From Panorpa germanica (lineage: Eukaryota; Arthropoda; Insecta; Mecoptera; Panorpidae), in NCBI GenBank assembly GCA_963678705.1, contig OY783223.1:8030721-8094720 (forward strand): a stretch of 64,000 bases of DNA, in the 5' to 3' direction. Under the pieces are notes generated by a model, which saw only the letters and a list, made by a program, of their open reading frames with translations, was not told the origin of the DNA and did not search any database. Positions 2,114 through 39,357 of this stretch are shown piece by piece (the stretch's first letter is position 1; every line of letters begins with the position of its first letter). A program made the position numbers and the translations under genes.

Positions 2114-3722
2114 TTTTATAAACGTTCCACAATATTTCTAAAAATCAGCTTTGTTTTGAAAACATATGAAAGTTAGGTTATGTTATAAATATTTTGACAA
2201 AAACATATTTTGAGGTTATGTTTTATAAAATTTGTAATATAGTTACGGTACCTTTAATATTAATTAGATTAATTATGTTTGATAGTAATATTTATATAAG
2301 ATTGTTCTATTTCGTACTTCTTTTCGTGAGTGTATTTAAAACAAATTTAATATAAAAATATGGTGAAAGTGTGAATCAGTTTTATGTCATTTTGACGCTA
2401 CAACCTCACTTGACAGATGTAAATTGCAGTATGCTCATGCCAAGCTACCTACTTGCTGCGAGAGCGAAGTGTATTATTGCTTTCAGTTTCAATATTACCT
2501 ACACCAAGGCAATCATGTATTTGGTTTACTAACGCTGAAGAAAATTTTGATATTGTTATCTATATATTTACAATTACCTGGTAAGTGATATTTCAAATTA
2601 ATATTATTCATTAAGTTTTTAGTGTTATATTTTATTTATTATTGTTTCTTTTGGTGTGTAGCACGTGATGTTACCACACATGGGTCTGTTCTGTTGAATA
2701 ATTACAATCTGTTAACAAGCGTAGCGTAATAATTAATTGAATTAATTTATAATTACAATGTTTATAATTAAAAATAGTGTCCTACGAGGTCCTTTTAATA
2801 ATAGACAACATATTATTAAGTATATTGTTTATTTAATGATTATTAACAACCTGTTCTACTTGTATAACATTCAGATACATATTTTTCTATTATTGTTTTT
2901 AAATCTGTACAAGTTTACGGACCTATAGGCGCCGCTTTCTAAAATTGCAAAATGTTAATTGCGTAAGTTTAACAGGAATATATAAAATAGCTTTTCATAA
3001 ATAATAGAAATATTAAGCTTCATTAGATATTTTGTTATATATCTTGCATTTAAAGTACGATAATTATTTTAATATTTCTGAGAACACCTTTAAAATATAA
3101 TGATGTAATGCAAAAAACCAGAAGAGAAATCGTGTTAACTTGCAGAAATAGAGATTCTCAAAATTTCTAGCAGTTAAAAAAGTTTTATATAGTGCATCGC
3201 ATGTAATTTTCAGCCATCGTTTGATAAACTATTATTTATATGTCGTTGAGAATTTGTACGAATTGTTGCTGCATTTTTCGATCGTCTGCAGTTATTCATA
3301 CGATAACAAAACAGCTATAACAGAGGCGGACTTATCAGGGTGTCCGATTTGCTCTATGGAAAATGGGCCCCTTGTAGTGTATTCTATTATGTTCCTTTTC
3401 TGACCTATGTCCTTAGTCCGTAATATAGTCATTGATAACATGTACAAGTAACAAAATATGTTTGAGATAGTCAACACAGTATGAGATAAAAATAATCCAT
3501 GACTAATACTAATCCATTAGTATTAGTATTAGTTGTTGTTTCTCTTGTTTATCAAATAATAGAATGATTAGCTGACACAAAGCGCAGTTTCTTTCAGGGT
3601 TTAGCAACTTCTATGCCACGTAACGACATTCCTTTTATAACGCTTCTGTATACGTAAATATGAGATAAATGTTATGTTTCTGTTGGCTTAGATTTAATAA
3701 TAACAGTTCTAAGAATTTTCGA

Positions 3723-4350
3723 ATGGGCTTGTGTCCTATGTCTTAATTTCTATAAAAGTGTACTATATATTGATAAAGTGGGTTACTAGAACCTCAAATG
3801 ACCAAATATTTGTTAATAACTCCTTATATGTTAGGAGATATTAACAATTAAAAAAGTCATTTTGTCTCTTTAATTATTAAAGGGATTCAACGTTGTACAT
3901 ATTCCAAATGCATGTGACATCACAATCACTGCCAACCTTACAGCTCATAAATCTCTGCTATATGTATTTATATATCAAAATATCAAATATTATTTACAGC
4001 TATTTCAAGGAACACTCAAATTTCAATATTATGTCTGCCGAAACAGGGTTAAATAAAATAAAAACTTATTATTCTTTGATTTGACTTGATTATTTGACTA
4101 CCAACAGCTACAGAACCTTACTCAACAAATAATTGACGTTAAAATTCATTTCACGTCATACAAATATGCCGACATCTCTAGCGCTAAAACTACATTTCAA
4201 ATTTCTAATATCTAAATTTCTTCTAATATGCTATATCTCCGTCAATATTTAGATATTTAATAAAATAGACACGCCAATACACATTTATTAACATCAATTT
4301 CAATTAACAATTGATAAATCGACCACTAAAAAATGAGGACACAAGCCCAT
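3723..4350 (+). mobile_element. MITE-A copy A2, near full length
   Basis: About 628 bp, starting ATGGGCTTGTGTCCTATGTC and ending GAGGACACAAGCCCAT, so the outer 14-15 bp are inverted repeats. Internal blocks are shared with all other copies: TATATTGATAAAGTGGGTTA, the CAACGTTGTAC motif, and TTAATAAAATAGACACGCCA near the right end. Short frames inside are not conserved between copies, so it looks non-autonomous. Confidence 0.92.
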
Positions 4351-4439
4351 TGCGAACTATAATTGAAGTGAAATAGTGAAAGAAACGTCACAAAACAGGA
4401 CACTTCACCAAATTGTTTACTGTGAAATCTACGATATGG

Positions 4440-4577: not shown

Positions 4578-5661
4578 GAACTATACCACATCTGTTTACA
4601 AGAAATATTTAAATTTTTATTTCTGATGATTCCTGAGCTTGGATGCTACGTTAGCGGCAGTCGGCGGGCATCTTTAAAAATGTGTTTTTTTAAATGGATT
4701 TTTATGTAAATTTATTCACAAATGTTGCTATATTTAATAAGCATAAATACATATATATTTCGAGATTGCGTCAAAAAAAATGAATTTTTTGTGCTAGTTA
4801 CATCGCCAGGGTAGTTTAACCTCTTAAATACGTATTATAAATAATTGCCCAGCCCTGTTTATAACATATCTGATTTTGCATAGCGTGCTTATCAGTAAAC
4901 TATTAAATATTATGGTTAAAATATTATTTGATAAGCAAGGTTTGATTTAATTACGATTTTCATAAATTTAATCAAATAAATTTTTGTGTAATGTAACCAT
5001 GTAACATAACTTAACAATTGTAAGTTATTCAAAATTAATTTCTTTGTGCTTGAGCTTGTGTAATGCACTAACTAAGGAAGCGTCTTCAATGGTGCATCTT
5101 TTTTCTACAACATCTTTATACGCTTCAATCTAAAAGTTCTGTACACAGCTCTGATATTTTACTCGCGATTTCCAACCTAAGTTTTAGTAAAAGTGTTAGT
5201 GTCAAACAGTAGTTAATTTTTTAACTATTTCGTTGATACAAAATGTTAACAACTTTTATTTAAACTTCCAAACGTCACTTTTTACATCAAAATCGTTCCG
5301 TCTATATATAATTTTCCAAAAACCAGTTTCCAGTTTAAAAAATTTATTGTTCTACAGACCACAAATATGTAATATTTTCATATCAGTCATGGAGACAATA
5401 GAATTATAAAATTATTGTTATTTTTTTGCTATTGTTAAGTATTTGCGTGATTCGAGTTACTGCCTATTGTTAAAAACACTTTTGTATAAAAATTATAATA
5501 TGTTGCCGTATTATTGAAATATGAGGGTCAAGTAAAAAAATGTTAGTAATTTTTATTATGAGCTGACCTTGTCATGTAATTGTCTTTGGACGTATAAAGC
5601 GTGTTAGAACGTGCTGTTTTTAATCATAATTTTAATTCTAAAGAGTAGTGCACTATAACTA

Positions 5662-5990
5662 ATGGGATTGTGAACCATGGCTTAATTTCTATAAAACTAA
5701 AGTACATATTCATAAATTTGATTATCAGGACCTCAAATGTTTAATTATTTTTAATAACGCGCTGTATTTTATGAGATATTAACAATTAAAAAGCTGGGTT
5801 TACCTTGCAATCATTAAGAGACCAACCATTATGAATTGCCATCCCTTTTATACAATCGAGTGTAAAAGAGATGCATAATGTTTTGATATTATGAATGTTG
5901 TAAACAGAAGAATATAAAATAAATTACTTATTAGTAGCCAATTATTTTGAGACATTAAAATACGTTTGAAAATTAACCCCCTCTCAAATT
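5662..5990 (+). mobile_element. Decayed MITE-A relative
   Basis: Begins AATGGGATTGTGAACCATGG and continues with diverged but collinear MITE-A blocks: CTTAATTTCTATAAAA, GGACCTCAAATGTTTAATTA, GAGATATTAACAATTAAAAA. The 3' part (GTTTTGATATTATGAATGTTGTA...ATTACTTATTAGT) resembles 31800-31890, so an older subfamily seems present. Boundaries are approximate. Confidence 0.6.
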
Positions 5991-6962: not shown

Positions 6963-9076
6963 ATGCGTATGTCATTTTGGTGGGGCTCAGATGTCGGAGA
7001 TTACATATTTAAGGGCTTCACGATAAATAACACAGCTACGCTTGTTTGTATATGTATTGGACTTACTGCCTTGGGAATTGTTTACGAAGCTATGAAAGTA
7101 AATAATCATTATTCTCAATTATTACTTAGATTATATGTGAACAATATAGCTAGGAATTAGGTCTTCTGGTAATATAATCAAATTTAAAAAAAAAATGAAT
7201 TTATTGTCTTGCTTTTACAAATTAAATTCTTAATTGGACCCCCATGGTTTATCCTGCACTGATAGTTGTTATGTACTTTTATATACTTTTGCCTGTAATA
7301 ATGTATTGTTAAAAGGTTTTATTACAAATGCTAGAGAACAAGACTTTTAGGAACATATTTATGAAGTTATTTGTGTATAAAATACAAATATAACAATAAA
7401 ATAAGAAAATGTACTGGCTAATGGGACGCAAATCCACATTATCTATACATAACAAGCTAATGCTTTATAAGCAAATATTGAAACCAGTTTGGACATATGG
7501 AATCCAGCTATGGGACTGTACTAATAAATGCAACATCATATGCATTCAGACTTTCCAAAATAAAGTTCTGAGGAACATAGTGAATGCACCATGGTATGTC
7601 CGCAATAGCGATATACATAGGGATCTCAAAGTAACTACAGTAGAAGAAATTATGAAAATAGCAAGAAAGCAGGAGCAACGTCTCCAACACCATGTCAACG
7701 TGGAAGGACTGACAAGAAGATTAAAGAGAACTAAGCCATTTGAGCTAGTATGATGACCGACAGAAAAAGAGTTGAAAACAATGGTTAATACTCTGACTTC
7801 AAAATATTTCCATTATTAAATTAACTAGAAAAAATATTATTAGATAATTTATATTAACTAGTTATTTATCAATATAATAGGTATAAAAAAAATAAAAAAA
7901 TTGTTAACATTTAACGTATTTTTAGGTTTTGAAAACCAAACTTCGACAAAAAGCAGCGCGTGAAGCCACATTGCCAGGTCTTCCAGTTGGAAGATGCCAT
8001 AGTGTTATAGAACCTCCACCAGCTCCTGTGTATAATAGATGTTGGCCTGCAGGAATGTCGTAAGCAACACATATTTTTAAAAAAATTTCTACTTTATGTT
8101 AATTTAAGTACATATTCATAAAATTTATTATAAAATTTCAGATGCTCGAATGCGCTAGGCGATTTATTATTTTACATAATGGACAGCTGTGTTAGTTATT
8201 TTATAATGCTAACAGTAATGTTATATAATGGCCCCATGTTTTTAGCAGTCATTATTGGTACAGCTATTGGTTATTTCATATTCGGACATCTGTCAAGAAA
8301 AATAAATATGGAAAATGTTCAAGCGAAAACAACAACTGTATTATGTGTTTCTACATGTCCGGGTAATAATACATATTATTTGATTATGTCTGTGCTTGTT
8401 ATTGTCCTTTTAATTTAAAATAGAAGTTTATATATAGAAGTTTATATGTGCGCCTGGAACATAGTTGTTTATTAATACAAGAACTATCAAAGATTCAAAC
8501 CTAGAATACACTAAGCTTTTCTGTAGTATGGATTACTAGAATTTATTATTTATTTGTCCTTTTAGACGTCGCTTCAAAGAGAACAGAAGATAGTTGTTAT
8601 ACCAATCCTTGCTCACTTCCTTCTACTGTATGTATATAATTTCATTTAATCAAAATAGGTTTATTCTTACCCGCTAAACACAATTACATACATTTACGTT
8701 TTCTAACGTTAATAATACGTTTACTTGATGGCAATGTAACAGAATTATGTTAAACTTCAGTAAATTATCAAACATTCTTGATAATCGTCCGGAAAAAACC
8801 ACATTACGGTCTTACGAATAAGTACTTTCTTAAAAAATGGCTATTTTAGAATTGAGATAAAGAGACCTAAATACATACACGTAAAATTTAATGTTTTATG
8901 ATTGATTTACAAAATAAAAACTGGTTAAGAATTATTAAAATTAATGAAATATATTTCTTATAGAGTCGAGCACCCCCGCGATAACGTCATCTCCAAGTAC
9001 TAGTAGTACTTCCCCGATCATGAGAAACGAAGAAGATGTAGCATCTGACGATCTTATACATTGTGAAAGATTATAA
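6963..9076 (+). CDS. Ctr1: High-affinity copper transporter, Ctr family
   Basis: Membrane trimer importing Cu(I) (family knowledge). Exons 6963-7097, 7926-8059, 8142-8362, 8566-8627, 8966-9076, giving 220 residues. The first membrane segment follows MRMSFWWGSDVGDYIFKGF (residues 1-19). The second carries the pore motif MxxxM (MLTVM) and the third the packing motif GxxxG (GTAIG). The start lies 7 bases into an exon whose acceptor is at 6956, so a 5' UTR exon must lie upstream. The N terminus is short and has little of the Met-rich copper-collecting region. The tail is uncertain: reading through the donor at 8363 gives a hydrophobic ending with stop at 8418. Splicing to 8964 instead of 8966 gives a stop at 8984. 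The longest spliced form ends LIHCERL. A jockey-like fragment lies in the first coding intron. Confidence 0.85.
7409..7753 (+). mobile_element. Jockey-like non-LTR retrotransposon, 5'-truncated 3' fragment
   Basis: An open frame of about 114 codons matches the C-terminal part of jockey-clade reverse transcriptases after the polymerase core. Recognisable stretches are KSTLSIHNKLMLYKQILKPV, WTYGIQLWDCT and NAPWYVRNSDIHRDL. The catalytic part of the RT and the endonuclease are missing. It ends at TGATGA. It lies in the intron 7098-7925 of the Ctr1 gene in sense orientation. The intact frame suggests a fairly recent insertion. Confidence 0.88.
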
Positions 9077-9619: not shown

Positions 9620-11920
9620 ATGTATCGTTTTACTAAAAAAATTATAAAACGTAATATATTCAAAAATAAAGGTAATATAAATTTGAAGAAAGTAAGAAAT
9701 TAACAATTATCCTATATTTAAAATAAAATATTTTATAGGTTATGTCAGATGTTTTTCCAATACAATAAATGAACCAGGAAATTTAGCACAAATAGAAGAT
9801 GTAAATCAAAGCAAAAGAATATTTAATGGTTCTTTTGGGCAACCAACCTTTTACACTCATCCTCATTTAATGCAAGAAGGAGAAGTCCTTCCAGGAATAA
9901 AACTTTCTGAGTTTGCAGTTCGTAGGAACAGACTGATAGAAACAATAAAACAATTTATATATAAAACAGAAAAATTACAACAAAATTTTGTGGTAGGATT
10001 ATGCACCAGCTTTATCAATGATGTGATATTGAATTATACAACGAAATAAAATTACGTTTTCTGTCTAGGTAATAATTCCCTCCGCAGTAAAGAAATATAT
10101 GAGCGACAAGATCCCATATACTTTCAGACAAAATACCGATTTTCTTTATTTAACAGGATGTCTAGAGCCAGATTGTTGTTTGGTGATGAGTGTTATTAAT
10201 GGAATTGCCGATCAAATGGTTTTATTTTTGCGTCCTAAAGATAGACATGCAGAACTTTGGGAAGGTCCTAGAACAGGAGTCGAAAATGCAAGTTATCTTT
10301 TCGGAATACCAGAAGCAAAACCTTTGAACAACTTAGCACCATTTTTACATAGGTAAGAGGTAAGAATATTTAACTAGATATAAGTGCATGAACTTCTTGA
10401 ATACTAATCCATGCACAGAAATAAAAGTAATGGAATGAATGAATAAACAAAATAATTAATTTCAGTTTTGCAAGTATGGGAAAATCGTTTGCTGTTTGGT
10501 TTGATAAAGAACAATGCGATAATTACCAAATAAGGGTGGTTATGGATGAAATTATGAGACATAGAGGTGTTATTAATGTCCATTCACCTACAGTGTTTGT
10601 CCATAAATTGAGAGTCATTAAATCGAAAGCCGAAATAAAATTAATGAAAGAATCTTGTAGAATAGCGTCCAAAGCAGTGAACGACACGATGATTGCTTCT
10701 AAACCAGGTAAGTTCTCTGGGTCTTCGAGGATATTAAATCGTAGGCTCTTAATTAACCCAAACATTAAATACATCTACAAAATATACAATTAATGCGAGA
10801 TATAATCTAGCTAAGGAAGGAGAGGAATCTTTTCAGACCCTTATCACCCTCGTATCAGAAAATAATTTGAAAATAATTATCATATAGGTATATCAGAGCA
10901 GTTTTTATACGCGAAGGTGGATGCAATGTGTCGAGAATTGGGGGCACAACGATTGGCTTATCCACCTGTTATAGCTGGAGGAGAGCGAGCTAACATAATT
11001 CATTACATAGAAAACAATCAAATTGTTAAACCTGGAGAAATGGTTCTGATGGACGCCGGTAAGTAAAATAAATAATCAACTTTACATTATGTAAATAGTA
11101 TTGTTGTAAATAAAATGATTTTTTAGGTTGTGAATATAATTCATTTTCAAGTGATATCACTAGAACGTGGCCAGTGGATGGAAGATTTACAGAAGCTCAA
11201 AAAATATTGTATCATATAATACTTATGGTGCAAAATGATTTAATTGTAAATTTAATGAAACAGGGATATCCTTCCTTAGATGTTTTGTTTCAAAGAATGT
11301 GTTTGTTGTTGGGAACGTCATTACAAAAAATGGGAGTCATAGATCAAAGCATATCTGAGAATAATTTAGGTCAAGTAAGTGCTCTTTTGTGTGAATTATA
11401 GCTATTTGAATTATATAATATATTCACAAATGTGAATTGCGTTTAATGATAACGAAAGAAAAAAGAATCCTCGAGCGCTAAGGTGATCTAATTCCTTAAA
11501 TTTTATAAATTAACTATTTCATTTATCTGTTTCAGATTGGGTACAGCTTCTGTCCCCATCATGTGTCTCATTATTTGGGCATGGATGTTCATGACACTCC
11601 TTCTATTTCACGCAGCATACCTATTCAACCGGGCATGATTATTACTATAGAACCAGGTATTGATTGTATTTGACGTTTCTTTAAAACTGATTACAACTAT
11701 ATCTCATTAATGTTCCCTTTTTTTAGGGGTATATATACCACATAATAGGAATGATGTTCCTGAGGAATTTAGAGGTCTCGCGGTTAGAATAGAAGATGAT
11801 ATTTTAATAACAGAAAATAAAGCTGAAGTTTTAACAGATACATGCATTAAGAAAATGGATGATTTGGAGAAATTGTTAGACCAGCGAGCGCTGACAGCAA
11901 CAACTAAAATAGAGTCGTGA
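9620..11920 (+). CDS. XPNPEP3: Xaa-Pro aminopeptidase 3, catalytic copy (mitochondrial)
   Basis: Dinuclear-metal M24B peptidase removing N-terminal residues that precede proline, including on processed mitochondrial proteins (family knowledge). Eight exons: 9620-9671, 9739-9992, 10069-10352, 10466-10707, 10888-11058, 11127-11374, 11536-11656, 11727-11920; 521 residues, human about 507. Exon 1 encodes a Lys/Arg-rich leader ([17 protein letters not shown]) fitting a mitochondrial presequence, and joins in phase to the N domain. All five metal ligands are present: two Asp in [18 protein letters not shown], His in the [13 protein letters not shown] block, Glu in TIEPG, Glu in RIEDD. The catalytic histidines around the metal site are also kept. 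An AATAAA lies at 11976-11981. A tandem, probably inactive copy follows. Confidence 0.93.
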
Positions 11921-13499
11921 ACGAAAAGAATTGTTCATTATTATTAATACTAATATATGTAAGGTTATTATTCAAAATAAAAAAATTTCTATAATTGTAA
12001 AGTCGTCTTTTATATGATTTATTATCACCAAACATATGTCATTACCGTTTTCAGTAATCTGTTGTAAATGATTTTAAATTTAGGGTTTGAGAAAGATTAT
12101 ATTAAGGGGAATATTAGGTTTTTGATCGGTCGGTGTGTGATCAAAAATTTGCATGCAAAAATATAAAATAAGACATACCCTTGGCAGCGGTAAAAGTATC
12201 CATAGTTAAAACACAAAATCACACACAACCACAAAACACTTGTTAAAGCTTAAAGCATAAAGCAAAAAACCTACTTATTTTATATAAACACTGTACACTG
12301 TTTAAATATCGAACATATTGACATGTCATTTTTAGAAACACATTTTCCCGCTCAATACAATATCTTACAAGTAACACTTCTTTTACAAAATATCAGTTTA
12401 CAAATAAAACTAGCAACCTTTTTCTAAATATATGAAATAGAAAAGCTAATGAAATAGTATGTTAATATTCTGATAGGATCTAAAGCATAAATAATATGTT
12501 TTGTTATTGACAATGTACTATGTAGTTAAGTAAAAAAGGTATGAACAAATATTTGTTTGACTGCTAGTTTTAAATGACTGAATCTTACACGTATTGTTAT
12601 ACTTTATATTCATCACTGCATATAATTAAAACATCACAATTGATTGATTTATTTTATGAACTATCACTAAAATTATACATATTAATTAAAAACGGTTTAA
12701 GCATCACCACTTGTACTGCACTGAAATTTATTTGATATTTAAATGCCAAACGGAAGTGGAAAATTGTTCACAGTGAAGCTCGTAAATTTTAGATATTAAT
12801 AGCTGAAAATAAATTAGTTTAAAATATATTTGAAATATTTAATCACAAGTAAAAGGTATTCAAACATTTTTTCAGCCAATTAACATCCAATTATTATCTA
12901 TTGTATTTTTGAAACATATATATTGTTCCTGGACAGCTGCTTTGACTAGCGCAGAACAAAATCTTGAACTATATTTGAATATTAAGTATATAATGTTAAA
13001 TTGTTCTTTTATGTTTATTTTTATTGCAATAAAAAGTTATATTATTTATAAATGTGATGCAGAAGCAATGTATTTTAGACTCAAGTTACAAGAATACAAA
13101 CAATTTAGAAAATGCCGCTCCACTATAGTTTCAAAGTTAGTTGAGCGGTAAATTTAAACCCACTACATAAAACTTAAAGATTACTTTTTTCATTAGGTAA
13201 TGAAATTAAGCTTTTTAATAATCGAAATTTATCATCTTTCGGGTAAATTAAATTACTCCAACTCTTTAAGCAAAAACAATTTGGTATATAAGTCAAGTTG
13301 GCAATATTGAAGATGTATATCAGCTGTATACCACAGACCTACCAAGAAATTAAATAATTAAAAACAAATGAACAAATAAAATCACAATAACAAATTAAAA
13401 ACGTATTACATATATATAAAAATTATAAGAGTATAAAAATTCAAAAAGTTATGATAAATTTAATTTAAAAACAGATTTTTAGAAAAAAACACTTTCAAA
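11921..13499. other. Spacer between the tandem XPNPEP3 copies
   Basis: AT-rich. No convincing exon, RNA gene or known repeat. An 80-codon frame at 12909-13151 has no recognisable family and sits beside a TTTTTTCAG that could be a chance acceptor; it is left uncalled. Confidence 0.5.
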
Positions 13500-16400
13500 A
13501 TGTTATCAAAATTTTTAATATTTAAAAAATCATCGCTTATTATACCTTCAACTACCGTTAGGAATATAGGTATTTTATTGTGTTATAATATTCGTTTCAC
13601 CATACACTAGAAGTTGTAATTCAGAATAATGTCTCTTGATTTTAATGCTAGAAGAATTAAAAAAATTGGCATTAAATTAGTTTTGCGTCTTAGCCAAGAA
13701 AAAGTTGTCTTATAATTCCACAAGTAGAGGTAATCTCTTGGAACGCAGCGCCACATGCGGTTCCAGAACTAACTATCAAAACCGCCTCACTTAAAAGAAC
13801 ATATTTCCATTCTGTACCATGAAAAGAATTATTTATGTCTCCAGTTCTCTTCATAAGACTAAAACACTAAATAAAAATAAAAATATGTTGAAATATAATT
13901 AATATTCTATGATTTTAGGTCGAGCTCGACTACAGAAACCAAAAACTAAACCGTTTGATAGATTTAAAGTACACAGGAATATTGCAGAACCAATTCCATT
14001 ATTAACAGGAGATGACCCCGTTCCGGGAATAAGCGCATTTGAATTTATTGACAGAAGACAAAAATTATTAGAAATGTTAATAATGACGGACACAAAACCG
14101 AAACAAAATCATATGGTGAATTCAATGTGAATTCTTTGAAATTATTACCAAACGGAGTTCGTTTTAGCTATATGTCAGAGATGGCAAATATCATGGTTTA
14201 CAACCTCATTCTCATTTCTTTGTACAGTTCTTCTATCTCCCTTACTCTTACGCAAAAGTATTTTTTCCTAACGTTTAATTTTTACAACAGATGGTGCTGC
14301 CCTCTACAGCAACGACAACACACAATTCTATAAAACAAAACGTGAATATGTTATATCTAACCGGAATTGACGACAAAAAGGCGTGTTTAGTTATCCTCTA
14401 TATATCTGGAGGAGCCATGAAGACTATTCTCTTCCATGATACTCTAAACGTAAAGCATGTAGGTGGATTTATGAAAGCAGAAGACTTAGGAAAGTTTGGG
14501 TTCGATGAACTGTATCCTTACTCACAAATGCCAGCGTTCTTGCATGGGTAAGCTTCTAACGAAGTGCAGTTCGTCTTAATGAGACATTTTCTTTAGACAA
14601 ACGAAGTGCAAGTGAATAATTACATCTTTGTACTTAGTTTACTGTATATTAGCCTAGTTAAATAAGGTGAATAAAAATTGTTTTCATTCTTTCCAGGCTG
14701 TTCAAAACTGTACGACAATTCAGGTTATGGTATCATGATAACGGTGGCATGCATGAACTTGAAACAGCCATGGTCTCCATATTAAAGCACCCCGGAGTTG
14801 TAGGGCTCCAATCACCAGTTAGGTTCATTCATCGACTAAGGCTTATAAAATCACCATCGGAAATATCTTTAATAAAAAGGTCTTCTAATATTATAACTAC
14901 AGGTTTTAATAAAGCTATGGAAGCTACGAAGCCAGGTATGTATTATAAACATATGTTAAAACTGTATTAAAATATTAAGCAATAGCTTAAGAAAAACGCC
15001 TACCTATTCCTAAGCTGTGACCAAACATACATGCTTTATTATTTATATAATTTACTTTTTTAAGTCATCGAGTTATTTAAGTTCTATTATTCATATTATA
15101 GGTGTGAGTTCTTACACGTTAGAAACATTAATTCATACCCACTGTGAACAAATGGGTGGTTCTCGTCCTGGGAATGGGATAGCGGGTGAAGATCCTAATA
15201 AGATTCGTATGAGTGAGCAGATGAACTCGCCAACCAAGAAAGGAGAACTTGTTCTTATTGATACTGGTAAGAAATACTGTCAAACAGTGTCAGAACCCTG
15301 TAATAAATGCTATGCTAAAATTAAAAGAAAATCCGATGAGTAAATTAATTCGTTAAATTTGAATTTAGGGTGTGAGTACAATACCTACACGACTTTCCTC
15401 ACGAGGACTTGGCCAGTTAGCGGGGAATTCAAACCACTACAGAAGCTGATGTATAGCGCGCTTTACAAAGTACAACAATATTTAATTGATAGTTTGAGAC
15501 GTGGTGGAAATGTTACACTTGACCAATTATACAACAAAATGTGTATTCAATTTGGGAAGGAACTTAGGTCCATTTCTTTCATGAAATCAGCTACTGCTTC
15601 GGAAATTTCAAAGGTAAAAGTATCTTCAAATATTCGCTTTAGTAGGCTATGAATGGGCTTGTGTCCTATCTGTTAATTTCTATAAAAGTGTACTATATAT
15701 TGATAAAGTGGGTTACTAGAACCTCAAATGTTCAATTATTTTTTAATAACTCCTTATATGTTAAGAGATATTAACAATTAAAAAAGGCATTTTGTCTCTT
15801 TAATTATAAAAGGGATTCAACGTTGTACACATTCCAAGTGCATGTGATATCACAATCCTTGTGTAAGGTTACCAACCTTACAGCTCATAAATCTCTGCTA
15901 TATGTATTTATATATCAAATATTATTTACAGCTATTTCAAGGAACAATCAAATTTCAATATTATGTCTGCCGTAACAGGGTTAAATGGAATAAAAACTTA
16001 TTATTCTTTGACTTGACTTGATTATTTGACTATCAACAGCTACAAAACATTACCACAGCACTGACCTACTCAACAAATAACTGACGTTAAAATGCATTTC
16101 ATGTCATACAAATGGCCGACCATTTCTAGCGCTAAAACTACAATTCAAACTTTAAATTACTATATCTCCGTCAACATTTAGATATTTAATAAAATAGACA
16201 CGCCAATACACATTTATTAACATCAATTTCAATCAACAATTGAAAAATCGACCACTAAAAAATGAGGACACAAGCCCATTGAACATTTGAGGTTCATGAT
16301 TCATACGCTCATTATTTAGTAACTTCAGTAACTTTAAAATAATCAAAACATCTTCGATTTCATGTACATATTTTTCAGATGTTACCAGCTTTGTGCCCAG

Positions 16401-16751
16401 GAAATGTTGCTCATTTTGCTGGCATGGAAATAAATGATTGTTATGGAGTTCCAAAAAATACGCCGCTTGTTCCTGGAATGGTATTCACATTAAAACCAGG
16501 TAACACATGAAAAGATAATTGTATACTCGCTTAAAGAAAGACGAATATTTTAACTTTAGCTAATGTGTTGATTAATTACAGGTATCGTTATACCACAGAC
16601 TAGAACAGATGTGTCTGAAAACTACAGAGGATTTTGTATGCAGCTACAGGACAACATCCTAGTTACTCCAACAGGAATTGAAGTTTTGACTATTAATTGT
16701 AAATCGTCACCCATTGACATACAAAAAGTAGTAGGTTCGATTGATTTATAA
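13500..16751 (+). CDS. XPNPEP3-like paralog lacking metal ligands (probable pseudoenzyme)
   Basis: Tandem duplicate of the preceding gene. Eight exons: 13500-13569, 13919-14115, 14291-14547, 14697-14935, 15102-15266, 15369-15613, 16379-16499, 16582-16751; 487 residues. Exon number and almost all intron positions and phases match copy 1. Exon 1 (MLSKFLIFKKSSLIIPS...) looks like a mitochondrial presequence. The M24 fold is recognisable (MLYLTG, FIHRLRLIKSPSEISLIKRS, LTRTWPVSG), but of five metal ligands only the first Asp (LIDTGCEY) and the His (NVAHFAGME) remain. The second Asp is Phe (TTFLTRTWP), the EPG Glu is Lys (TLKPG) and the last Glu is Gln (QLQDN). Two nearby catalytic histidines are Gly and Asn. 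The frame and splice sites are intact, which argues against a dead gene. MITE-A copy A3 sits in intron 6. Expression is unknown. Confidence 0.88.
13690..13854 (-). CDS. Possible small ORF or exon in intron 1 of the XPNPEP3 paralog
   Basis: A 54-codon open frame on the strand opposite the host gene, in a block less AT-rich than its surroundings. It starts MKRTGDINNSFHGTEWKYV, continues with a hydrophobic stretch (LLSEAVLIVSSGTACGAAF) and ends LFLG. An acceptor-like TTTTAG lies just before it in the minus direction. No family recognised. It could be a tiny membrane protein, an exon of a nested gene, or chance. Confidence 0.2.
   Translation of the reverse strand: MKRTGDINNSFHGTEWKYVLLSEAVLIVSSGTACGAAFQEITSTCGIIRQLFLG
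15653..16279 (+). mobile_element. MITE-A copy A3 in an intron
   Basis: About 627 bp, ATGGGCTTGTGTCCTATCTG to GAGGACACAAGCCCAT, inserted in intron 6 of the XPNPEP3 paralog (15614-16378) in sense orientation. It makes up most of the intron. The bases immediately after it (TGAACATTTGAGGTTC, 16280-16295) repeat an internal MITE-A motif in reverse, suggesting insertion into or beside an older fragment. Confidence 0.92.
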
Positions 16752-17843
16752 TTTGGGTTCATGTAAATTTTATGTATTATTTATGATAAAAAAAGTTTTT
16801 GAACGTGATTAGTGTACTAGAAGCTAAAAAAGAAAACAAATTTAATAAAAATATTATGTAATTGTGAAGACAACTGTTTTTATATATATTTTTTAATAGT
16901 TTAAATGACTTTCTGGATTCACAGACCTTTTTTAACGTTTTAACGTAATTGTGGGATATCATTTTATTTTTTCGCACATTAAAGACAATCACTCTGTTGA
17001 AAAATATGGTAATGTTTAACTGTAGTAGAGTATCACACTACATTATGATGCCTATCCCCATTACGGTGCCTATGATGTTTTAAAAAAATATCAACTTTAA
17101 ACCTGCATTTTTTCTTATTTGCTGGAACCATCTAAAAAGAAACAGTAAAAACTGTCGTAATTTTTCGTTCTACTGTTCTCGATATATTCGTTAAAATTAT
17201 ACCTCTTTTATCCACCATGTTAAATATATACGCACTTTACGTTATTAATATCTCCTTTCACAGCTGGTCAAACCATTTGATTTTACCAACATTTTTATAT
17301 ATTTTGCGCATTGTACCAAAAAAAAAATGAAAAGGATATATTTTTGTAACAAAAATTCCATACATTTTTGTAATAATTTATTCACCCATTATAAAACTTA
17401 TAAATTCTAGAGACGAATCCGCTAAACACGAAATGTAAAAAAAATACATTATAAAAATTACTTCTATTATGCGAGATTTGTCATGTATCACCTAAGCTTT
17501 AGCTCTCCATTCATCAATATTTGCACTAGATAGAAAAGAATTTACAAGTGAGACTAAATTAAAAAGATAGGAGTTATACAAATTTATAAATTGAATTGGA
17601 AGTCTGTTGAGTGTGGCTCAATTAATAACTATTTCCCGAGGCAACGCAAAACCTCGACCCAATTCTGGTCCCATGTCTTATAATGGATTCTATAATTTCT
17701 AGCTACGTTAAGTAACTATTAGATAAATCTCTAAAAATATTATAAATGCGTTCTTGTTGTTTATATCTTATTTGTCATATTTAAAAAAAATATATATAAA
17801 ATAAAATCTATAAAGTATAATAAAAAATTGGTGAATTTCCGTT
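16752..17843. other. Convergent 3' intergenic region (XPNPEP3 paralog / PPAT)
   Basis: AT-rich, no gene, RNA or clear repeat recognised. It must contain the 3' ends of both flanking transcripts, which converge here. Confidence 0.5.
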
Positions 17844-20207
17844 TCACCACGATAAGTCGTCCGGTATACCTCCAGGATAATCACCGGTTAAGCAAGCTGT
17901 GCAATGTCCAACTTTATCTGGTACTGGAGAAACCATTTTATGCCGTACTGCATCATTCAAACCTTTAAGACTTAAGTAGGCTAAGCTATCAGCACCTAAA
18001 ATAAAATAAGTATGTTATAAGTATATTAATAAAAATAAAAAACAAAGATTGCTATAAGTAGTTTTCAATGCTCACCAACAAAGTTAGCAAGTTGTTCAGG
18101 ATTTAATCTATTGGCGACAAGTTCTTCCCTCGTTGGTATATTAATCCCCATGTAACAAGGATACTTTAGTGGAGGACTTGCAATTCTAACATGTACTTCC
18201 TTCGCCCCAGCATCCCTCAACAACTTAATAATCGGACCAATTGTATTTCCTCTTACAATACTATCATCGATTAATACTAATCTTTTTCCTGCAACATTAT
18301 CAGACAACGCACCAAACTTTTTAGCAACCCCTAATTGTCTTAATTGCGTTGAGGGTTGAATAAATGTGCGGCCAACATATCGATTTTTGCACAAAACTTC
18401 TACAAACTTAATTTTTGATTCTTCGGAGTAGCCTAGTGCTGCAGCTGTACCTGATTCTGGCACGGAGCTAACAATATCTGCATCCGTTGGTGCTTCCCTT
18501 GCCAAAACACGTCCACATTGAAGACGGACTGAATATACCCCATGACCTTCGAAAATGCTGTCAGGTCTTGCGAAGTAGACGTACTCGAATATACAAAACG
18601 CGGCTTTTTTGCCCGGGATTTCAACAACGTCGATGGTTCTGATTCCTTCTTTTGTCATTTCCACGATCTCTCCAGGTTTGACTTCGCGGACGTATCTTGC
18701 ACCGATGGACAAAAAGCCACACGATTCACTTGAAATAACCCAGCCTGTAGCTTCTGTGATTTCAAAATCTGAGTGCTTGACAGATGTTCCAATTGGAACT
18801 ATTTTACCAATGCAGAGGGGTCTGTTGCCGTAGGGATCTCGAACGCCGTATATTTTATTCTTTAACATTATTACCAGAGAGTAGGATAAAGGTGCAAGTT
18901 GCATGAGATGTTTAATTCGACCAGGCCAGTCTGGACCATTAATTTCTCCTTCTGGGGGATTCAAACACAGGGCCTGGGTGATCAACTCGGAATCTGAATG
19001 AGTAGATAATCCCACACCTCGTTGGAGCACCTAAAACATTAATTGCATATCTTAGAAAAACAACTTTTCACATCTTTGTTTCTTTTAAAAAATATTACTT
19101 ATGAGAATTTATAAAAAGTAGCAGAAAAATAAGTTATTCAAGAAACACACCAATGTCTGCATCTTTTCGTTTTAACTTTTATATCTGGACAGATATAAGA
19201 GGCTAAAATATCGATACAATATATTGCAATATACAAAATTCTCGAGTTATGCCTTACCATTTTTCGCAAACTTTCGCAATTGACCAGCTCTCCATTATGA
19301 GCGACAGCAACGGCACCATGAGAAGTATGGACCACAAATGGTTGACAATTCACTTCTTCAGAAGATGCACTTGTGGAATACCTATAAAATTCACCAATCA
19401 AAGTCATCAGAAAATATGTAGAAAGGGCAACATATTTAGAAGGCGGAAGATAATTCAAGAAACAAACCTTGTATGACCAATTCCTAGATTGCCTTTTAAT
19501 TTTTTAACGCTATCATCATTAAATATGTTATTAATCATTCCCATTCCTTTGTGCACGTTAAAATTTTTCGCGCATGTTCCTTCGCTTGTAACAATACCCG
19601 CAGATTCTTGTCCTCTGTGTTGCAGTGCAACTAATCCCAAACATACGACCTGAGCGATATCTACCTGCAAGTAGAAATATTACATAATATAGAGAAAACC
19701 GGCTTCGTGTAGAGGTATTACAAAACATGCAAATATGATTTAGTTTAGGAGTATGTTATAGAGAAACTTGTTTTTAGTTTTTTATTGTGCGAAATTAGGT
19801 TGCAAAAGTAGATATACCTGCGTGGGCCATTCACCGCAGGCGATGGCTCCGAACACGCCACACTCGTGAGTCAGACCAGAACCTACGGCTCCTCGTCCCA
19901 ATCTAGGAGTAAAAGTAAATTCAATAAATCATAGTATTTTAAATGACATAATTGATTATACATTAAATCAGTCGTTATATACGATAATTAAAATCGAGTT
20001 TAGTATCTTATTTATTATTTCCATTCACTGATTTTAGTTTTAATCTCTTTCTGTGCAATAAAAAAATACAAAGAGACAGAGTGCATACCTTTTCCCCCAT
20101 AATTTGACTTCCATTTTTTCGCTTTTTTCATCATTTTTATTTATATTCTTAGATTCATCTTTGCAGCAACCATTTGAACATGAATTACTAGCTTTCGCTT
20201 CAGCCAT
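17844..20207 (-). CDS. Prat: Amidophosphoribosyltransferase (PPAT / Prat)
   Basis: First committed step of de novo purine synthesis: PRPP plus glutamine to 5-phosphoribosylamine, in the cytosol. Six exons: 20207-20089, 19902-19818, 19664-19468, 19381-19258, 19030-18076, 17995-17844; 543 residues. After a ~50-residue N-terminal leader (propeptide region) comes [12 protein letters not shown], whose Cys is the N-terminal nucleophile of the glutaminase domain after maturation. Further motifs are [36 protein letters not shown], the PRPP loop [13 protein letters not shown], and cysteines likely to bind the 4Fe-4S cluster ([29 protein letters not shown]). The start codon lies a few bases after a TTTTAG acceptor, so a 5' UTR exon lies upstream. 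Head-to-head with PAICS. Confidence 0.96.
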
Positions 20208-22117: not shown

Positions 22118-22233
22118 ATGTCAAATTGTGAACATATTTCTAGAGCAAAAACTATTGCTAGATTAGTTAATCGTATAGACAATCATCGTGAAGGGAAAGG
22201 ACGAAGGCGCGGCGTTAGGAGAGCGTATAATGG
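22118..22233 (+). other. Short coding-like frame interrupted by a MITE
   Basis: ATG at 22118 opens 37 codons (MSNCEHISRAKTIARLVNRI, then an Arg/Gly-rich end GKGRRRGVRRAY) before running into MITE-A copy A4 at 22230. The block is richer in CpG and GC than its surroundings. No family recognised. It may be an exon remnant cut by the insertion, or chance. Confidence 0.2.
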
Positions 22234-22866
22234 GCTTGTGTCCTCATTTGTTAGTGGTCGATTTTTCAATTATTGATTGAAATTAATGTTAATAAATGTG
22301 TATTGGCGTGTCTATTTTATTAAATATCTAAATATTGACGGAGATGTAGCAATTAATAGTTTGAATTGTAGTTTTAGCGCTAGAAATGGTCGGCCATATT
22401 TGTATGACGTGAAATGCATTTTAACGTCAGTTATTTGTTGAGTAGGTCAGTGCTGTGGTAATGTTTTGTAGCTGTTGGTAGTCAAATAATCAAGTCAAGT
22501 CAAAGAATAATAAGTTTTTATTTCATTTAACCCTGTTACGGCAGACATAATATTGAAATTTTATTGTTCCTTGAAATAACTGTAAATAATATTTGATATT
22601 TTGATATATAAATACATATAGCAGAGATTTATGAGCTGTAAGGTTGGTAACCTTACACAAGGATTGTGATGTCACATGCACTTGGAATGTGTACAACGTT
22701 GAATCCCTTTAATAATTAAAGAGACAAAATGACTTTTTTAATTGTTAATATCTGTTAACATATAAGGAGTTATTAAAAAATAATTGAACATTTGAGGTTC
22801 TAGTAACCCACTGTATCAATATATAGTACACTTTTATAGAAATTAAGACATAGGACACAAGCCCAT
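22230..22866 (-). mobile_element. MITE-A copy A4
   Basis: Full-length reverse copy of about 637 bp, with ATGGGCTTGTGTCCTCATTT at its left and GACACAAGCCCAT at its right. Its right end abuts MITE-B copy B2 with no intervening base (CCCAT then TACGAGAG), so one element inserted at the edge of the other. Confidence 0.93.
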
Positions 22867-23046
22867 TACGAGAGTTCAGCGGCGACTCATACTTAAAACA
22901 AGTTGTGGGGTATAAACTGCCGATATAACTAAAAAGCACTGACTCGACTTATTTTTCTATAATGTATATAAAAACGAATAAGATAAAATTCATTATCGTA
23001 TTATAGATTTGTACCGCTTTTATAACCTCTATCGTGATTTGAACTA
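22867..23046 (+). mobile_element. MITE-B copy B2, right terminus deleted
   Basis: Begins TACGAGAGTTCAGCGGCGAC and matches B1 until TTATAACCTCT at about 23030. It then jumps to ATCGTGATTTGAACTA, so about 26 bp of the right inverted repeat is lost. The outermost left bases are missing where copy A4 joins. Confidence 0.75.
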
Positions 23047-25849: not shown

Positions 25850-26404
25850 ATGGGCTTCTGTCCTACGTCTTTAAAGTGGGTTACTAAAACCTCAAATGTT
25901 CAATTATTTTTTAAGAGATATGAACAATTAAAAAAGTCATTTTGTCTCTTTAATAATTAAAGGAATTCAACGTTGTATAACATTCCAAATGCATGTGACA
26001 TCACAACCGCTGCCAACCTTACAGCTCATAAATCTCTGCCATATGTATTTATATATCAAAATATCAAATATTATTTACAACTATTTCAAGGAACAATAAA
26101 ATTCCAATATTATGTCTGCCTTAGCAGGGTTAAATAAAATAAAAACTTATTATTCTTTGATTTGACTTGATTATTTCGACTACCAACAGCTACAAAACAT
26201 TACCACAGCACTGACCTACTCAACAAATAGCTGACGTATACAATGCATTTATATAACTAAAACTACAATTCAAATTTTTAATTGCTATATCTTCGTCAAC
26301 ATTTAGATATTTAATAAAATAGACTCGCCAATACACATTTATTAACATCAATTTCAATCAACAATTGAAAAATCAACCACTAAAAAATGAGGGCACAATC
26401 CCAT
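25850..26404 (+). mobile_element. MITE-A copy A5 with long flanking direct repeat
   Basis: Shortened copy (about 555 bp) starting ATGGGCTTCTGTCCTACGTC and ending GGGCACAATCCCAT. The block with TATAAAAGTGTACTATATAT near the left end is absent. The 24 bp at 25828-25851 (ATTTGGATTCGAAGCGTA...) recur at 26403-26426 with one mismatch (T to C), overlapping the terminal AT of the element. No other copy here shows such a long duplication. Confidence 0.88.
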
Positions 26405-26668
26405 TTGGATCCGAAGCGTATAAAATTTGTTCAGAAAGTTTATTTCTTAATTATAAGGAATTCAAATTAGAGACGGTACATTTTTCTGCCCCTTCTGACC
26501 ATAAATTCTTTCAACTCAACAGCCTTGGTCAGTGGTTCTTATAACACAAACAATGGAAAATTTTTGCTTTATATTTTGAAGATTGAAACATTCTTTAAAT
26601 ATTTTAGGAAACGCGCGTATTTATTCAGCTGAATTATTTATGAAAGAGTCACCAGAGATAATAAGAGT

Positions 26669-29800: not shown

Positions 29801-31411
29801 CAACAATGGACTCTTTATAGTTCAAGATAATATCAATTTCTAGCCTTATTTAAAGACACAGGGACGTACTAAGGGTCTTTATAGATCTAAACATCTCTGA
29901 CATTCCCATTCCCAGCTAATGTTTTATTTTGTATGTACTAAGTGTGCATGCATTGTACTTTAGTAATACACTTCATCTAATATTAATAATTATCTTTAGT
30001 TAATATAAATTCTTACCTTTCATATAATTTTGTGAAGTTTGTAAGCCTCCCTTAATGTTCGATTTATCCGCATGGTGCTCTGGCATCGGTTTTGTTCCAC
30101 CCTCTATGAGAACTCCGCAAGGTCTCAATATAAATATTTAAAGACGAATATTTTAGCAGAATTGCAGTACATACTTCTTTAATTACTTTTATAGTAATGA
30201 TACTCGTAATTTGCATTATTGGGTAAAATAAGTATAAATCTTTAAATACGTATTTTAAAACATTAATTTCAAGTATAAATGTAATTTAAAAAGAAAGCAT
30301 CAGTGCCATCTATTCGAATTTTATCTAACTAAACGTTTTTAAATCTTTAAAATATGTATATAGTCGTCTGGTTCGATTCTTATACCGACACTGTATTGTA
30401 ATTGTGTTTAGTTTAAATGATTATCAGTAAAATGTTATTACTTCATGAAAACTGCATCAGTGATAATAATTGCTCGTTCTATCTAAGTATGTTGTTATTT
30501 TTGTTAACTATGTATTAATAATTTATCCTTTTTTCAGACCGCGCAGAAGTTGACATAATGCGTCAAACAAGTATCTTGGTTTTCGAGATTCTTGAAAAGG
30601 CATGGGCACACCGCGATTGTGCTCTCATTGATATGAAAATTGAATTTGGTGTTGACGAACAAGGTATTCTATACAATTCTACATATCTGAAATATGTTTT
30701 CGTAATTATTTCGTAACAAAGAATTATATTGTAGGTCAACTTCTCCTTGCTGATATAATTGACTCAGATAGCTGGCGACTATGGCCCTCTGGAGATAAAC
30801 GCCTGATGGTAGATAAACAAGTCTACAGAAATCTTGCTTCTGTTACTCAATCCGATTTAGAAACTGTCAAACGTAATTTCTCATGGGTGCGTGATCAATT
30901 AGATCATTTAATCCCAAAAAATGACCATCTCGTTGTTATATTAATGGGAAGCCCGTCAGACAAAGAACACTGTTCAAAAATTAAGAAAACCTGTGAAAGA
31001 TTAGGATTAAATGTGGCTACAAGAATTACTTCAGCCCACAAGGGTACAAGGAAAACTCTGGAAATTGTTGCAGAGTATGAAGCTATCTGCAGCAAATTGG
31101 TTTTTATTGCTGTTGCTGGTAGATCAAATGGATTGGGTCCAGTTATTTCTGCAAATACAAGCTATCCTGTCATTAATTGTCCCCCGTTGAAACCAGAAAA
31201 TATGAACCTAGATATTTGGTCTAGTTTAAATGTTCCTTCTGGATTAGGTTGTGGAACTGTTTTATACCCAGAAGCCGCTGCTTTTAATGCAGCTTCCATT
31301 ATTGGTATTACAAATTATTTAATTTGGTCGAGATTGCGTGTAAAGCAGTTTGATAACTTTTCGAGTTTAGTATTGGCAGATAAAGCATTGTGTGCATTAG
31401 AAATCGCATAA
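26814..31411 (+). CDS. Paics: Bifunctional AIR carboxylase / SAICAR synthetase
   Basis: Cytosolic enzyme for two consecutive de novo purine steps: AIR to CAIR, then CAIR plus aspartate and ATP to SAICAR. Exons 26814-26832, 28103-28306, 28621-28878, 30538-30663, 30735-31411; 427 residues, human 425. The SAICAR synthetase domain is N-terminal ([60 protein letters not shown]). The class II PurE domain is C-terminal ([53 protein letters not shown]). Exon 1 encodes only MATPTQ and a split codon. Two introns exceed 1 kb and hold no recognised gene. Head-to-head with PPAT. Confidence 0.96.
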
Positions 31412-36800: not shown

Positions 36801-39357
36801 TTGTATTCTGAAATCATTGTTTTCTTATTGATCTTTGTATTCTTATGCCTCTCTTTCTGATTAATTTATTCGTTTTCTTTAAATAATTTTATTTAGGTGA
36901 CCTTTTCGTCACTCTATGACGTAGTATGCAGCTTCACGAGAGATTATAGTCTAATCCGGGAAAAAATACAACGTTTAGAAGAGTTTGATAAAACGTGTAT
37001 TGAAAATGCTTACAAGGGAATTAATTCTGTAGTCACAGCCGAATGGGGAAATAATTCGCCATGTCAAGTAAATTTCATATCATTTGTAATAAATGAAGAT
37101 CAATATTAGATATTCCAAATAATGTGTTTTTCTCTTAAGGTTATTTTAATAACTGATGGATGCATTGGCCAGGATTACATAATAGACCCCTCTACGAGGA
37201 AATCACAACTCTTTGAATTTCCTGGAAAACTTCATGTAGTTTGCATAAGTAAAAATGATGATCAAATGTTTGTTGAAGGTAATTATTCATTACAATGGGC
37301 TTGTGTCTTAATTTCTATAAAAGTGTACTATATATTGATAAAGTGGGTTACTAGAACCTCAAATATTCAATTATTTTTTAATAACTCCTTATATGTTAAG
37401 AGATATTAACAATTAAAAAAGTTATTTTGTCTCTTTAATTATTAAAGGGATTCAACGTTGTACACATTCCAAGTGCCTGTGACATCACAATCCTTGTGTA
37501 AGGTTACCAACCTTACAGATCATAAATCTCTGCTATATGTATTTGTTATTAAAATATCAAATATTATTTACATCTATATCAAGGAACAATCAAATTTCAA
37601 TATTATGTCTGCCTTAGCAGGGTTAAATAAAATAAAAACTTATTATTCTTTGATTTGACTTGATTATTTGACTACTAACAGCTGCAAAACATTACTACAG
37701 CACTGACCTACTCAACAAATAACTGACGTTAAAATGCATTTCACGTCATGCAAATATGGTCGACCATTTCTAGTGCTAAAACTACAATTCAAACTTTTAA
37801 ATGCTATGTCTCCGTCAATATTTAGATATTTAATAAAATAGCACGCCAATATACATTTATTAACATCAATTTTAATCATCAATTGAAAAATCGACCTCTA
37901 AAAAATGAGGACACAAGTCCATTCAATTTTATACGAAATATTAATCTATTTAAAATTTATTCTTCATTGTGCAGCTCGTCCTCTATATCAACAACTTCTC
38001 GAAATGTCGGGTCCTTTACCAGGTTCCCTCTATTATCCAGAATTTTCTTTGGATGTTTCTAGCGTGAGAACTATATTTAAAAAATTAGCTGAAGATAATT
38101 ATCGTGAATTTAAAGCTACATTAAGATGTGGTAAACTAGAAAATAAAGTTTTAGTGTCACCACCTCCAGAAGTAAGATGCGTTGTATTAAATAATATATA
38201 TATATTTTATACATATACACATAATAAATAATATAACTCATTGTAGACACATGTGGAAGTAACAGAATATGAGACTACAAGGCACAATATTACTAATATT
38301 ATTGAAATATGTGGATTTATTTCCGTGCAAGACATAGGTTCGCCAATGGCTATAAGTCGACATCTTCTTTTACCAGCTCCTGTTAATTTATCTACAATTA
38401 ATAATGAAGGCGTTATTAAAAGTAAATATATACTGCTTCTATTTTAACTTTACGTTAAAAGTTATATAATATGCATATGCATTTTAGGTACAGCCGATAA
38501 TGCATCTAAAATGGATGACTCACACTCTGATGACGATTCTACAGACGAAGGAAAAATACCGTCGCTTTGTGTCATATTACACGGTGCCCTTAAGGTTTGA
38601 TTATAGTAAAACAATACTCGATTAATATTTATCTATTGTTACTAAAAATAAATTACTCCAGGTTGAAAATATGGCAGCGCTTGTTCTCTTGGGGGATAAC
38701 TGGTATGGATTCGTCTACTCATGGGCTGACAATCGAAAGAAGAGTAACTTAATGTTGATGATATTAGAACCAGGGCATAATGTTTTACCATGGCTAGGAG
38801 ATTTACGTTCCTTAGGCACTATAGATATGGCAACAAGCGAAGATACTCCAGTGTTTCCAGTAAGTTATTATTATTTCACGTCTTTCGTAGAATTGTTCAT
38901 TATTGATTACATTACAGGTTCGACCTTCGGAAAAGCGGAGCTACTCGCAGAGTAGTGTTACATGGATTAAACATGCTGGACTTCAATCAGATATTCAAAA
39001 AATTTTGCGACATGCTCGCAAGCTACCTGACAAGACCTCTCATTTTTACAAAGTAAGACCGGAAAAGATATTTTATTTATATATATTTATAATTTTAATA
39101 ATTTTTTTCTGTAATAGGAATTGAATCGCATCAGACGAGCAGCCATTTCTTTGGGATTTTTGGAGCTTTTAGATGGCTTAGCTTGTATTTTTGAAAGAGA
39201 ATGTACGTTACTTCCAGCAAATGCAAATCCAGATTGTGCTCTTCAGTTGTCGTACGCAGCTAACGAACTCAAGAAGCTGAATAATAGAGATATAAGCATT
39301 AATGTTAATGTTTTGAGTACGAAATTCAATAGTTATTTTCCTACCGGTCAACCTTAA
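33899..39357 (+). CDS. IntS14: Integrator complex subunit 14 (VWA9)
   Basis: Subunit of the nuclear Integrator complex (3'-end cleavage of snRNAs and attenuation of nascent mRNAs), working with INTS10/INTS13. Nine exons: 33899-34063, 36897-37067, 37140-37278, 37975-38171, 38247-38421, 38488-38594, 38662-38859, 38918-39052, 39118-39357; 508 residues, human about 518. The N-terminal VWA domain has an intact MIDAS motif (DVSYS in LLVLDVSYSMG) and VILITDGCIG. The C-terminal half has SYSQSSVTWIKHAGLQSDIQ and ERECTLLPANANPDCALQL. Intron 1 (2.8 kb) contains the complete DNAJC2 gene on the same strand, and intron 3 contains MITE-A copy A6. The last A of the stop codon starts an AATAAA (39357-39362). 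Confidence 0.94.
34539..36680 (+). CDS. Dnajc2: DnaJ homolog DNAJC2 (zuotin/MPP11), nested in an INTS14 intron
   Basis: Ribosome-associated J-protein that recruits Hsp70 to nascent chains and also has chromatin roles through SANT domains (family knowledge). Two exons, 34539-35417 and 35496-36680; 687 residues. The J domain is at about 85-155, with the HPD motif in LRHHPDKRKGQGEE. The zuotin-homology region follows (VEKFYSFWYNFDSWREYSY), then a charged helical region (RRWIEKQNKAVRAKRKKEE). Two SANT/Myb-like domains lie in the C-terminal half (IDWTPDNIQLLIKAVNLFPA and VPWSKTEQALLEQAIKTYPV), separated by a Lys/Asn/Ser-rich linker longer than usual. An AATAAA at 36791-36796 lies before the next INTS14 exon, so it can end its own transcript. 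Confidence 0.96.
37295..37922 (+). mobile_element. MITE-A copy A6 in INTS14 intron 3
   Basis: Near full-length, 628 bp. It starts ATGGGCTTGTGTCTTAATTT, with a short deletion right after the terminus, and ends GAGGACACAAGTCCAT. It starts 16 bp after the exon donor and ends about 50 bp before the next acceptor, so it forms nearly the whole intron. No long target duplication is visible. Confidence 0.92.

Follow-up and report, generated by a model that had tools for sequence, protein, structure and literature searches.

To our knowledge, the M17 S-LAPs are the only family of mitochondrial aminopeptidases known to have lost catalysis and then expanded. In Drosophila, the largest group of these proteins is reported to have lost its catalytic residues before it expanded (PMC3078892), and S-LAP1 and S-LAP6, which were inactive when purified as recombinant proteins, belong to a set described as structural constituents of the paracrystal in sperm mitochondria (PMC6388916). 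Culex sperm contain abundant S-LAP orthologs (PMC9934393), and the silkworm's single S-LAP homolog is described as testis-specific and required for male fertility (PMC13115824). Within the Mecoptera, paracrystalline material is described in the mitochondrial derivative of sperm of the hangingfly Bittacus, and extra axonemal rods of sperm were first found in Panorpa germanica (PMC4204384). The family that we describe here from Panorpa germanica is M24B, whereas the S-LAPs are M17.

EBP1/PA2G4 and Spt16, which have the M24 fold, are cytosolic or nuclear proteins of MetAP-like or FACT lineage, and the N-terminal domain of Spt16 is inactive as a peptidase. One PA2G4 protein has been called a non-peptidase pseudoenzyme (PMC3888471), and histone binding is described for the Spt16 N-terminal domain (PMC4741192). 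A 2024 review of inactive metallopeptidase homologs mentions neither XPNPEP nor aminopeptidase P, and its table gives EBP1 for M24 (PMC11266112). We found no published dead XPNPEP3 or aminopeptidase P family of insects in the openly licensed literature, which is weak evidence of absence. A preliminary description of the locus had stated that no insect case was described; for M24B the openly licensed literature searched does not contradict this, but insect M17 S-LAPs with lost activity have been reported (PMC3078892, PMC6388916).

The window analysed here, a stretch of 64,000 nucleotides of Panorpa germanica DNA, holds two XPNPEP3-type genes, copy 1 (active type) and copy 2.

9620..11920, + strand: copy 1, active-type XPNPEP3, eight exons, 521 aa, 5/5 metal ligands present
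9620-9671, 9739-9992, 10069-10352, 10466-10707, 10888-11058, 11127-11374, 11536-11656, 11727-11920, + strand: exons of copy 1
13500..13569, + strand: copy 2 exon 1, basic presequence-like N-terminus MLSKFLIFKKSSLIIPSTTVRNIG
13919..14115, + strand: copy 2 exon 2
14291..14547, + strand: copy 2 exon 3, inside the AMP_N match
14697..14935, + strand: copy 2 exon 4
15102..15266, + strand: copy 2 exon 5; ligand D308 kept, catalytic-loop His lost
15369..15613, + strand: copy 2 exon 6; F319 in place of copy 1 ligand D344
16379..16499, + strand: copy 2 exon 7; HH replaced by GN (399-400), ligand H403 kept, EPG Glu replaced by K430
16582..16751, + strand: copy 2 exon 8; RIED replaced by QLQD (Q452, Q454), stop TAA

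Copy 2 (window 13500-16751, + strand) runs from an ATG at 13500 to a TAA at 16751 in eight exons, with a coding sequence of 1464 nt that encodes 487 aa without internal stops. All seven introns are GT-AG, so that the full eight-exon frame with clean splice sites of the preliminary description is confirmed. A purpose-written spliced aligner that was fed the copy 2 protein reproduced the same exons, which is a self-test; the gene models of copy 2 and its paralogs come from homology alone. Intron phases agree with those of copy 1 at 7/7 introns and, because the introns are shared with copy 1, we infer that copy 2 arose by DNA-level tandem duplication and not by retroposition.

Both Pfam domains of the family score above the gathering cut-off in copy 2 (Peptidase_M24, E 1.1e-29; AMP_N, E 3.5e-7), and copy 1 likewise scores as AMP_N plus Peptidase_M24. 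An M17 domain is absent from copy 2, in which M24 and AMP_N were the only Pfam matches at E up to 0.001. Among solved structures, 5x49 ('Probable Xaa-Pro aminopeptidase 3') is the best match (E 1.8e-46, 161.9 bits); we take it to be the human protein, and the Icp55 structure 6a9v scores 84.3 bits. Because 5x49 ranks first among the structures, we place copy 2 nearer to XPNPEP3 than to the rest of M24; the XPNPEP3 trees took in XPNPEP3-type rows only and test its place within XPNPEP3, not against other M24 families. The two Pfam domains and a presequence-like N-terminus are common to copy 2 and to XPNPEP3/Icp55, from which copy 2 differs in lacking three of the five metal ligands and most of the catalytic His/Arg positions. 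EBP1/PA2G4 and the Spt16 N-terminal domain resemble copy 2 as M24 relatives without a peptidase role, but XPNPEP3 is the best-scoring match of copy 2, which moreover belongs to a set of several copies.

PPAT lies near the XPNPEP3 copies at window 17844-20207 on the - strand (neighbourhood 9620-20207), and part of PAICS is found at 30656-31411. Locus tags in Ignelater (05141/05140), Trichogramma (0003722/0003720) and Microctonus (008092/008090) point to an old XPNPEP3-PPAT neighbourhood. In two trees, copy 1 is placed next to Diptera. In the PPAT tree, from which a fused Clunio row (P0238) was left out, the window row falls with Diptera-like rows, a placement that lacks starred support. Intron 6 of copy 2 contains a repeat of about 630 bp, which recurs at eight further whole or partial places in the window, with 80-95% identity, and many more times in the fetched loci. 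An open frame at 7400-7753 presumably resembles the C-terminal part of a non-LTR retrotransposon protein; it has no Pfam match.

15652-16280: repeat of about 630 bp inside intron 6 of copy 2
22229-22867, 37294-37926, 53211-53834, 3721-4352, 25872-26405, 45359-45888, 1-241, 5661-5792: other places of this repeat in the window

Copy 2 is changed at eight of the 11 active-site positions that we examined, three of the five metal ligands among them; the assignment of these positions as ligands or catalytic is one that we take from knowledge of M24B. The ligands D333 and H429 of copy 1 are kept in copy 2 (D308 and H403), and D344, E456 and E480 have become F319, K430 and Q454, so that copy 2 reads D, F, H, K, Q where an active M24B aminopeptidase has D, D, H, E, E. 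Elsewhere in the active site, H425 and H426 are replaced by G399 and N400, H436 by N410 and R478 by Q452, and R347 is kept as R322. H316 is matched by a residue other than His (R290 or M, depending on the alignment) in a poorly aligned loop that contains no His. All five ligands are intact in 132 of 132 aligned relatives, namely 118 of the 119 new proteins listed (best 120 of 3501) and 14 of the 118 database matches to copy 2, a fused artefact (P0119) having been dropped from the alignment.

It is thus almost certain, as judged from the changed ligand and catalytic residues, that copy 2 has lost metal binding and hydrolysis. The preliminary description had reached the same reading of hydrolysis from the second Asp replaced by Phe, the EPG Glu by Lys, the last Glu by Gln, and two adjacent catalytic His by Gly and Asn; these are the residues F319, K430, Q454, G399 and N400. 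The search of the protein database with copy 2 gave 118 matches, none above 34% identity, and since it needs shared 5-residue words, diverged dead insect relatives may escape it. Five of these matches were read individually, and each has the five ligands. None of the three ligand substitutions of copy 2, which the preliminary description had proposed to look for in related insect genomes, occurs in the 14 aligned proteins from these 118 matches.

Within the Panorpa germanica genome (464,208,970 bases in 249 contigs), a search with the M24 model and then with the protein of paralog C9, with tblastn on the fetched loci, revealed six further dead XPNPEP3 paralogs and one truncated relic. The dead family has at least seven members including copy 2, a lower bound. 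That copy 2 belongs to such a family was missing from the preliminary description; with six more dead paralogs in the genome, we reject the idea of a single odd copy.

From 7736169: paralog C14, eight exons
C9:3401209-3402660: paralog C9, one exon, 484 aa
From 9614492: paralog C8, eight exons
From 20531842: paralog C4, model incomplete at the tail
C2:26265268-26268088: paralog C2, eight exons
C20, about 2234472-2240775: paralog C20far, intron 6 absent, model incomplete at the 5' end
C20:2227363-2233368 (L016): relic of a dead XPNPEP3 copy, truncated to about exons 2-4, upstream of C20far

Because it has a single exon, C9 is probably a retrocopy. The repeat of about 630 bp noted above also occurs within intron 3 of C20far (L012 489-1075). 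The modelled frames of the seven dead paralogs contain no frameshifts and no internal stops; the one stop counted in two of three models of C20far is its C-terminal stop. For C4 and C2, the first exons were picked by a pattern scan and placed in the query, with the stretch cut just upstream; alignment of the C9 protein arrived at these first exons too, but at another second exon for C4. C4, C2 and C20far entered the alignment and the tree, column, substitution and segment comparisons without their first exons. Identity among the dead paralogs is 29-45%, and between them and copy 1 it is 27-31%. Their residues at six active-site positions of copy 1 are as follows, in the order copy 2, C14, C9, C8, C4, C2, C20far.

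D333: D, D, D, E, D, D, N
D344: F, G, G, S, G, G, D
H429: H, T, D, N, H, Q, N
E456: K, K, K, Q, K, K, C
E480: Q, Q, Q, R, Q, Q, K
R478: Q, Q, Q, Q, Q, Q, V

No dead paralog has more than two of the five metal ligands left, and several replacements are common to most of them (E456K in 5/7, E480Q in 5/7, R478Q in 6/7). In the tree, the seven form one clade (100/100) on a stem of 2.69 changes per column, within which the other six are grouped apart from copy 2 (95/90), which makes copy 2 the first branch. A sister relationship between the clade and copy 1 is weakly supported (86/76), and C8 and C20far are flagged as long branches whose placement is unsure. Given that copy 2 splits first, it is the likely founder of the dead family. 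By parsimony, E456, E480 and R478 would have been lost in the common ancestor, before the family spread, and D344 (still present in C20far) and H429 (still present in copy 2 and C4) would have been lost later and unevenly.

Regarding the state of these genes, the preliminary description had named a fresh pseudogene and an assembly error as outcomes that would overturn its reading. Decay of copies does occur, as the truncated relic upstream of C20far shows. Against both outcomes, however, like replacements recur at separate loci, and the assembly, based on PacBio and Hi-C data, was built from PacBio Sequel IIe reads (PMC11464959). In 200 neutral simulations started from copy 1 and continued until at least eight of the 11 residues had been lost, stops averaged 24.8 (minimum 6), and no run was free of them. 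Frames disrupted at a neutral rate are not what the dead paralogs show: seven intact frames persist at 29-45% mutual identity, set against the roughly 25 stops that accompanied neutral loss of 8/11 residues. On these stop counts and the intact frames of the paralogs, we reject copy 2 as a fresh pseudogene, and decay or misassembly together would be a very improbable account of the family.

Substitutions point in the same direction, with pS above pN in 28 of 28 pairs (z 4.9-12.9); no dN/dS ratio is given because dS is saturated. In the alignment, 90 columns are fixed to at least 97% across 123 active-type proteins and copy 1. All seven dead paralogs have lost 28 of these columns and all seven keep 20 (gaps were scored as losses, and three of the 28 fall in the N-terminal stretch missing from the C4, C2 and C20far rows); copy 2 retains 49 of the 90. 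When the alignment is divided into segments of 20 residues and compared with a sample of 25 of the 123 active-type rows, the dead paralogs are in 12 of 23 segments as alike as the active-type proteins to within 7 points, or more alike. Well-kept examples are 61-80 (48% in dead vs 49% in active), 361-380 (48 vs 47%) and 481-500 (52 vs 56%). These segments and the excess of pS agree with the earlier suggestion that the fold may be kept under selection. We are highly confident, from these comparisons, that the dead paralogs are both catalytically dead and under selection.

In the remaining 11 of 23 segments, dead-dead identity lies 14 to 68 points below active-active identity. The deepest falls are in the catalytic loops, at 301-320 (12% in dead vs 80% in active) and 421-440 (21 vs 85%), followed by 281-300 (22 vs 65%) and 161-180 (22 vs 62%). 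The low segments 101-140, 161-180, 261-300 and 381-400 hold none of the 11 active-site positions (in 101-140, 261-280 and 381-400 dead-dead identity is down by 14-34 points), and these falls imply that relaxation is not confined to the catalytic residues. Segment 461-480, which holds two of the 11 positions, is yet only 6 points lower in the dead paralogs.

This pattern bears on the possibility that the former active-site pocket, with its present lining of Lys and Gln, is a binding site for a peptide or small molecule that is left uncut. Lys at 456 and Gln at 480 in five of seven paralogs, and Gln at 478 in six, may be kept for their own sake, and segment 461-500 is conserved among the dead proteins (47 and 52%); but other loops that once formed the pocket rank near the bottom in conservation (12% at 301-320, 21% at 421-440), and we consider a new-ligand pocket unlikely.

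The N-termini of the dead proteins suggest where they act. The product of exon 1 of copy 2 is basic and has no D/E in its first 30 residues, and all six modelled dead N-termini (that of C20far is missing from its model) lack D/E and have at least four K/R in 30 residues, a charge pattern seen in 33 of 3058 internal 30-mers of the eight proteins. Their hydrophobic moment is modest (0.21-0.42, vs 0.44 in copy 1), and the presequence call is a charge and moment heuristic rather than a trained predictor. The presequence-like exon 1 of the preliminary description is supported by this charge pattern, within the limits of the heuristic and with a modest helical moment. From their N-termini, the dead paralogs are probably mitochondrial.

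Dead proteins that retain some of the fold residues and an N-terminus resembling a presequence could also bind the active XPNPEP3 (copy 1), or its matrix substrates, as inactive subunits that tune N-terminal trimming, and pseudoenzymes are described as sometimes regulating their active enzyme cousins (PMC11266112). However, seven diverged copies (29-45% identity) per one active gene would seem to exceed the needs of a partner subunit, and a spread to several chromosomes would fit a function of their own better. We found no specific link to the active neighbour, for which the preliminary description had proposed a binding partner or regulator, and regard that role as improbable.

The comparison with the S-LAPs would favour a function by mass. 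As in the largest group among S-LAP1-8 of Drosophila, an aminopeptidase appears to have expanded after loss of its metal and catalytic residues, with its frames kept by selection; a sperm role is shown for the S-LAPs, whereas for the dead XPNPEP3 family we infer it. We suspect that a tandem duplication of XPNPEP3 placed copy 2 beside the active gene, and that catalysis was lost in the ancestor of the dead clade (E456, E480, R478). The fold would then have been multiplied, with dead copies spreading to several chromosomes. The proteins would go to mitochondria and act there by mass, most likely in the paracrystalline material of the mitochondrial derivatives of sperm. Such a dead XPNPEP3 family, with copy 2 as its first branch, acting as a mitochondrial structural protein and including the sperm step, is the likeliest of several explanations, and we give it an even chance. 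The narrower claim by analogy with the S-LAPs, that the dead paralogs are a structural protein of sperm mitochondria, may hold, with a probability somewhat short of even.

It is also of interest to consider the M17 family in the same genome. Eleven loci on contigs C20, C14, C15, C21 and C19 carry the M17 leucyl aminopeptidase domain in one unbroken frame, ten of them whole and the eleventh partial. The ten whole copies were read, for which we assume the M17 residue roles and bovine numbering: one keeps all seven active-site residues, and nine have one to three of the seven changed. Five of these nine have an altered metal ligand, and the other four are changed at a single position, the one aligned to Lys262. 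This expansion is possibly an S-LAP-type family in Mecoptera, as far as the changed residues indicate. A dead M24B family standing in for missing M17 S-LAPs was considered and rejected, because M17 itself is expanded.

We tentatively suggest that a second mitochondrial aminopeptidase family, M24B XPNPEP3, which is unrelated to M17, has been turned into a dead structural protein of scorpionfly sperm mitochondria alongside an expanded M17 family, a convergence of two aminopeptidase folds within one lineage that we put forward as a possibility rather than an expectation. If true, a second, unrelated fold would have taken the same path, and the route would be one that evolution can repeat rather than a chance event peculiar to M17. 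Such a case would also raise the question of which property common to both folds (oligomers, matrix import or abundance) suits them to building. Seven candidate genes also make it directly testable what mecopteran sperm structures, the extra axonemal rods among them, are made of.
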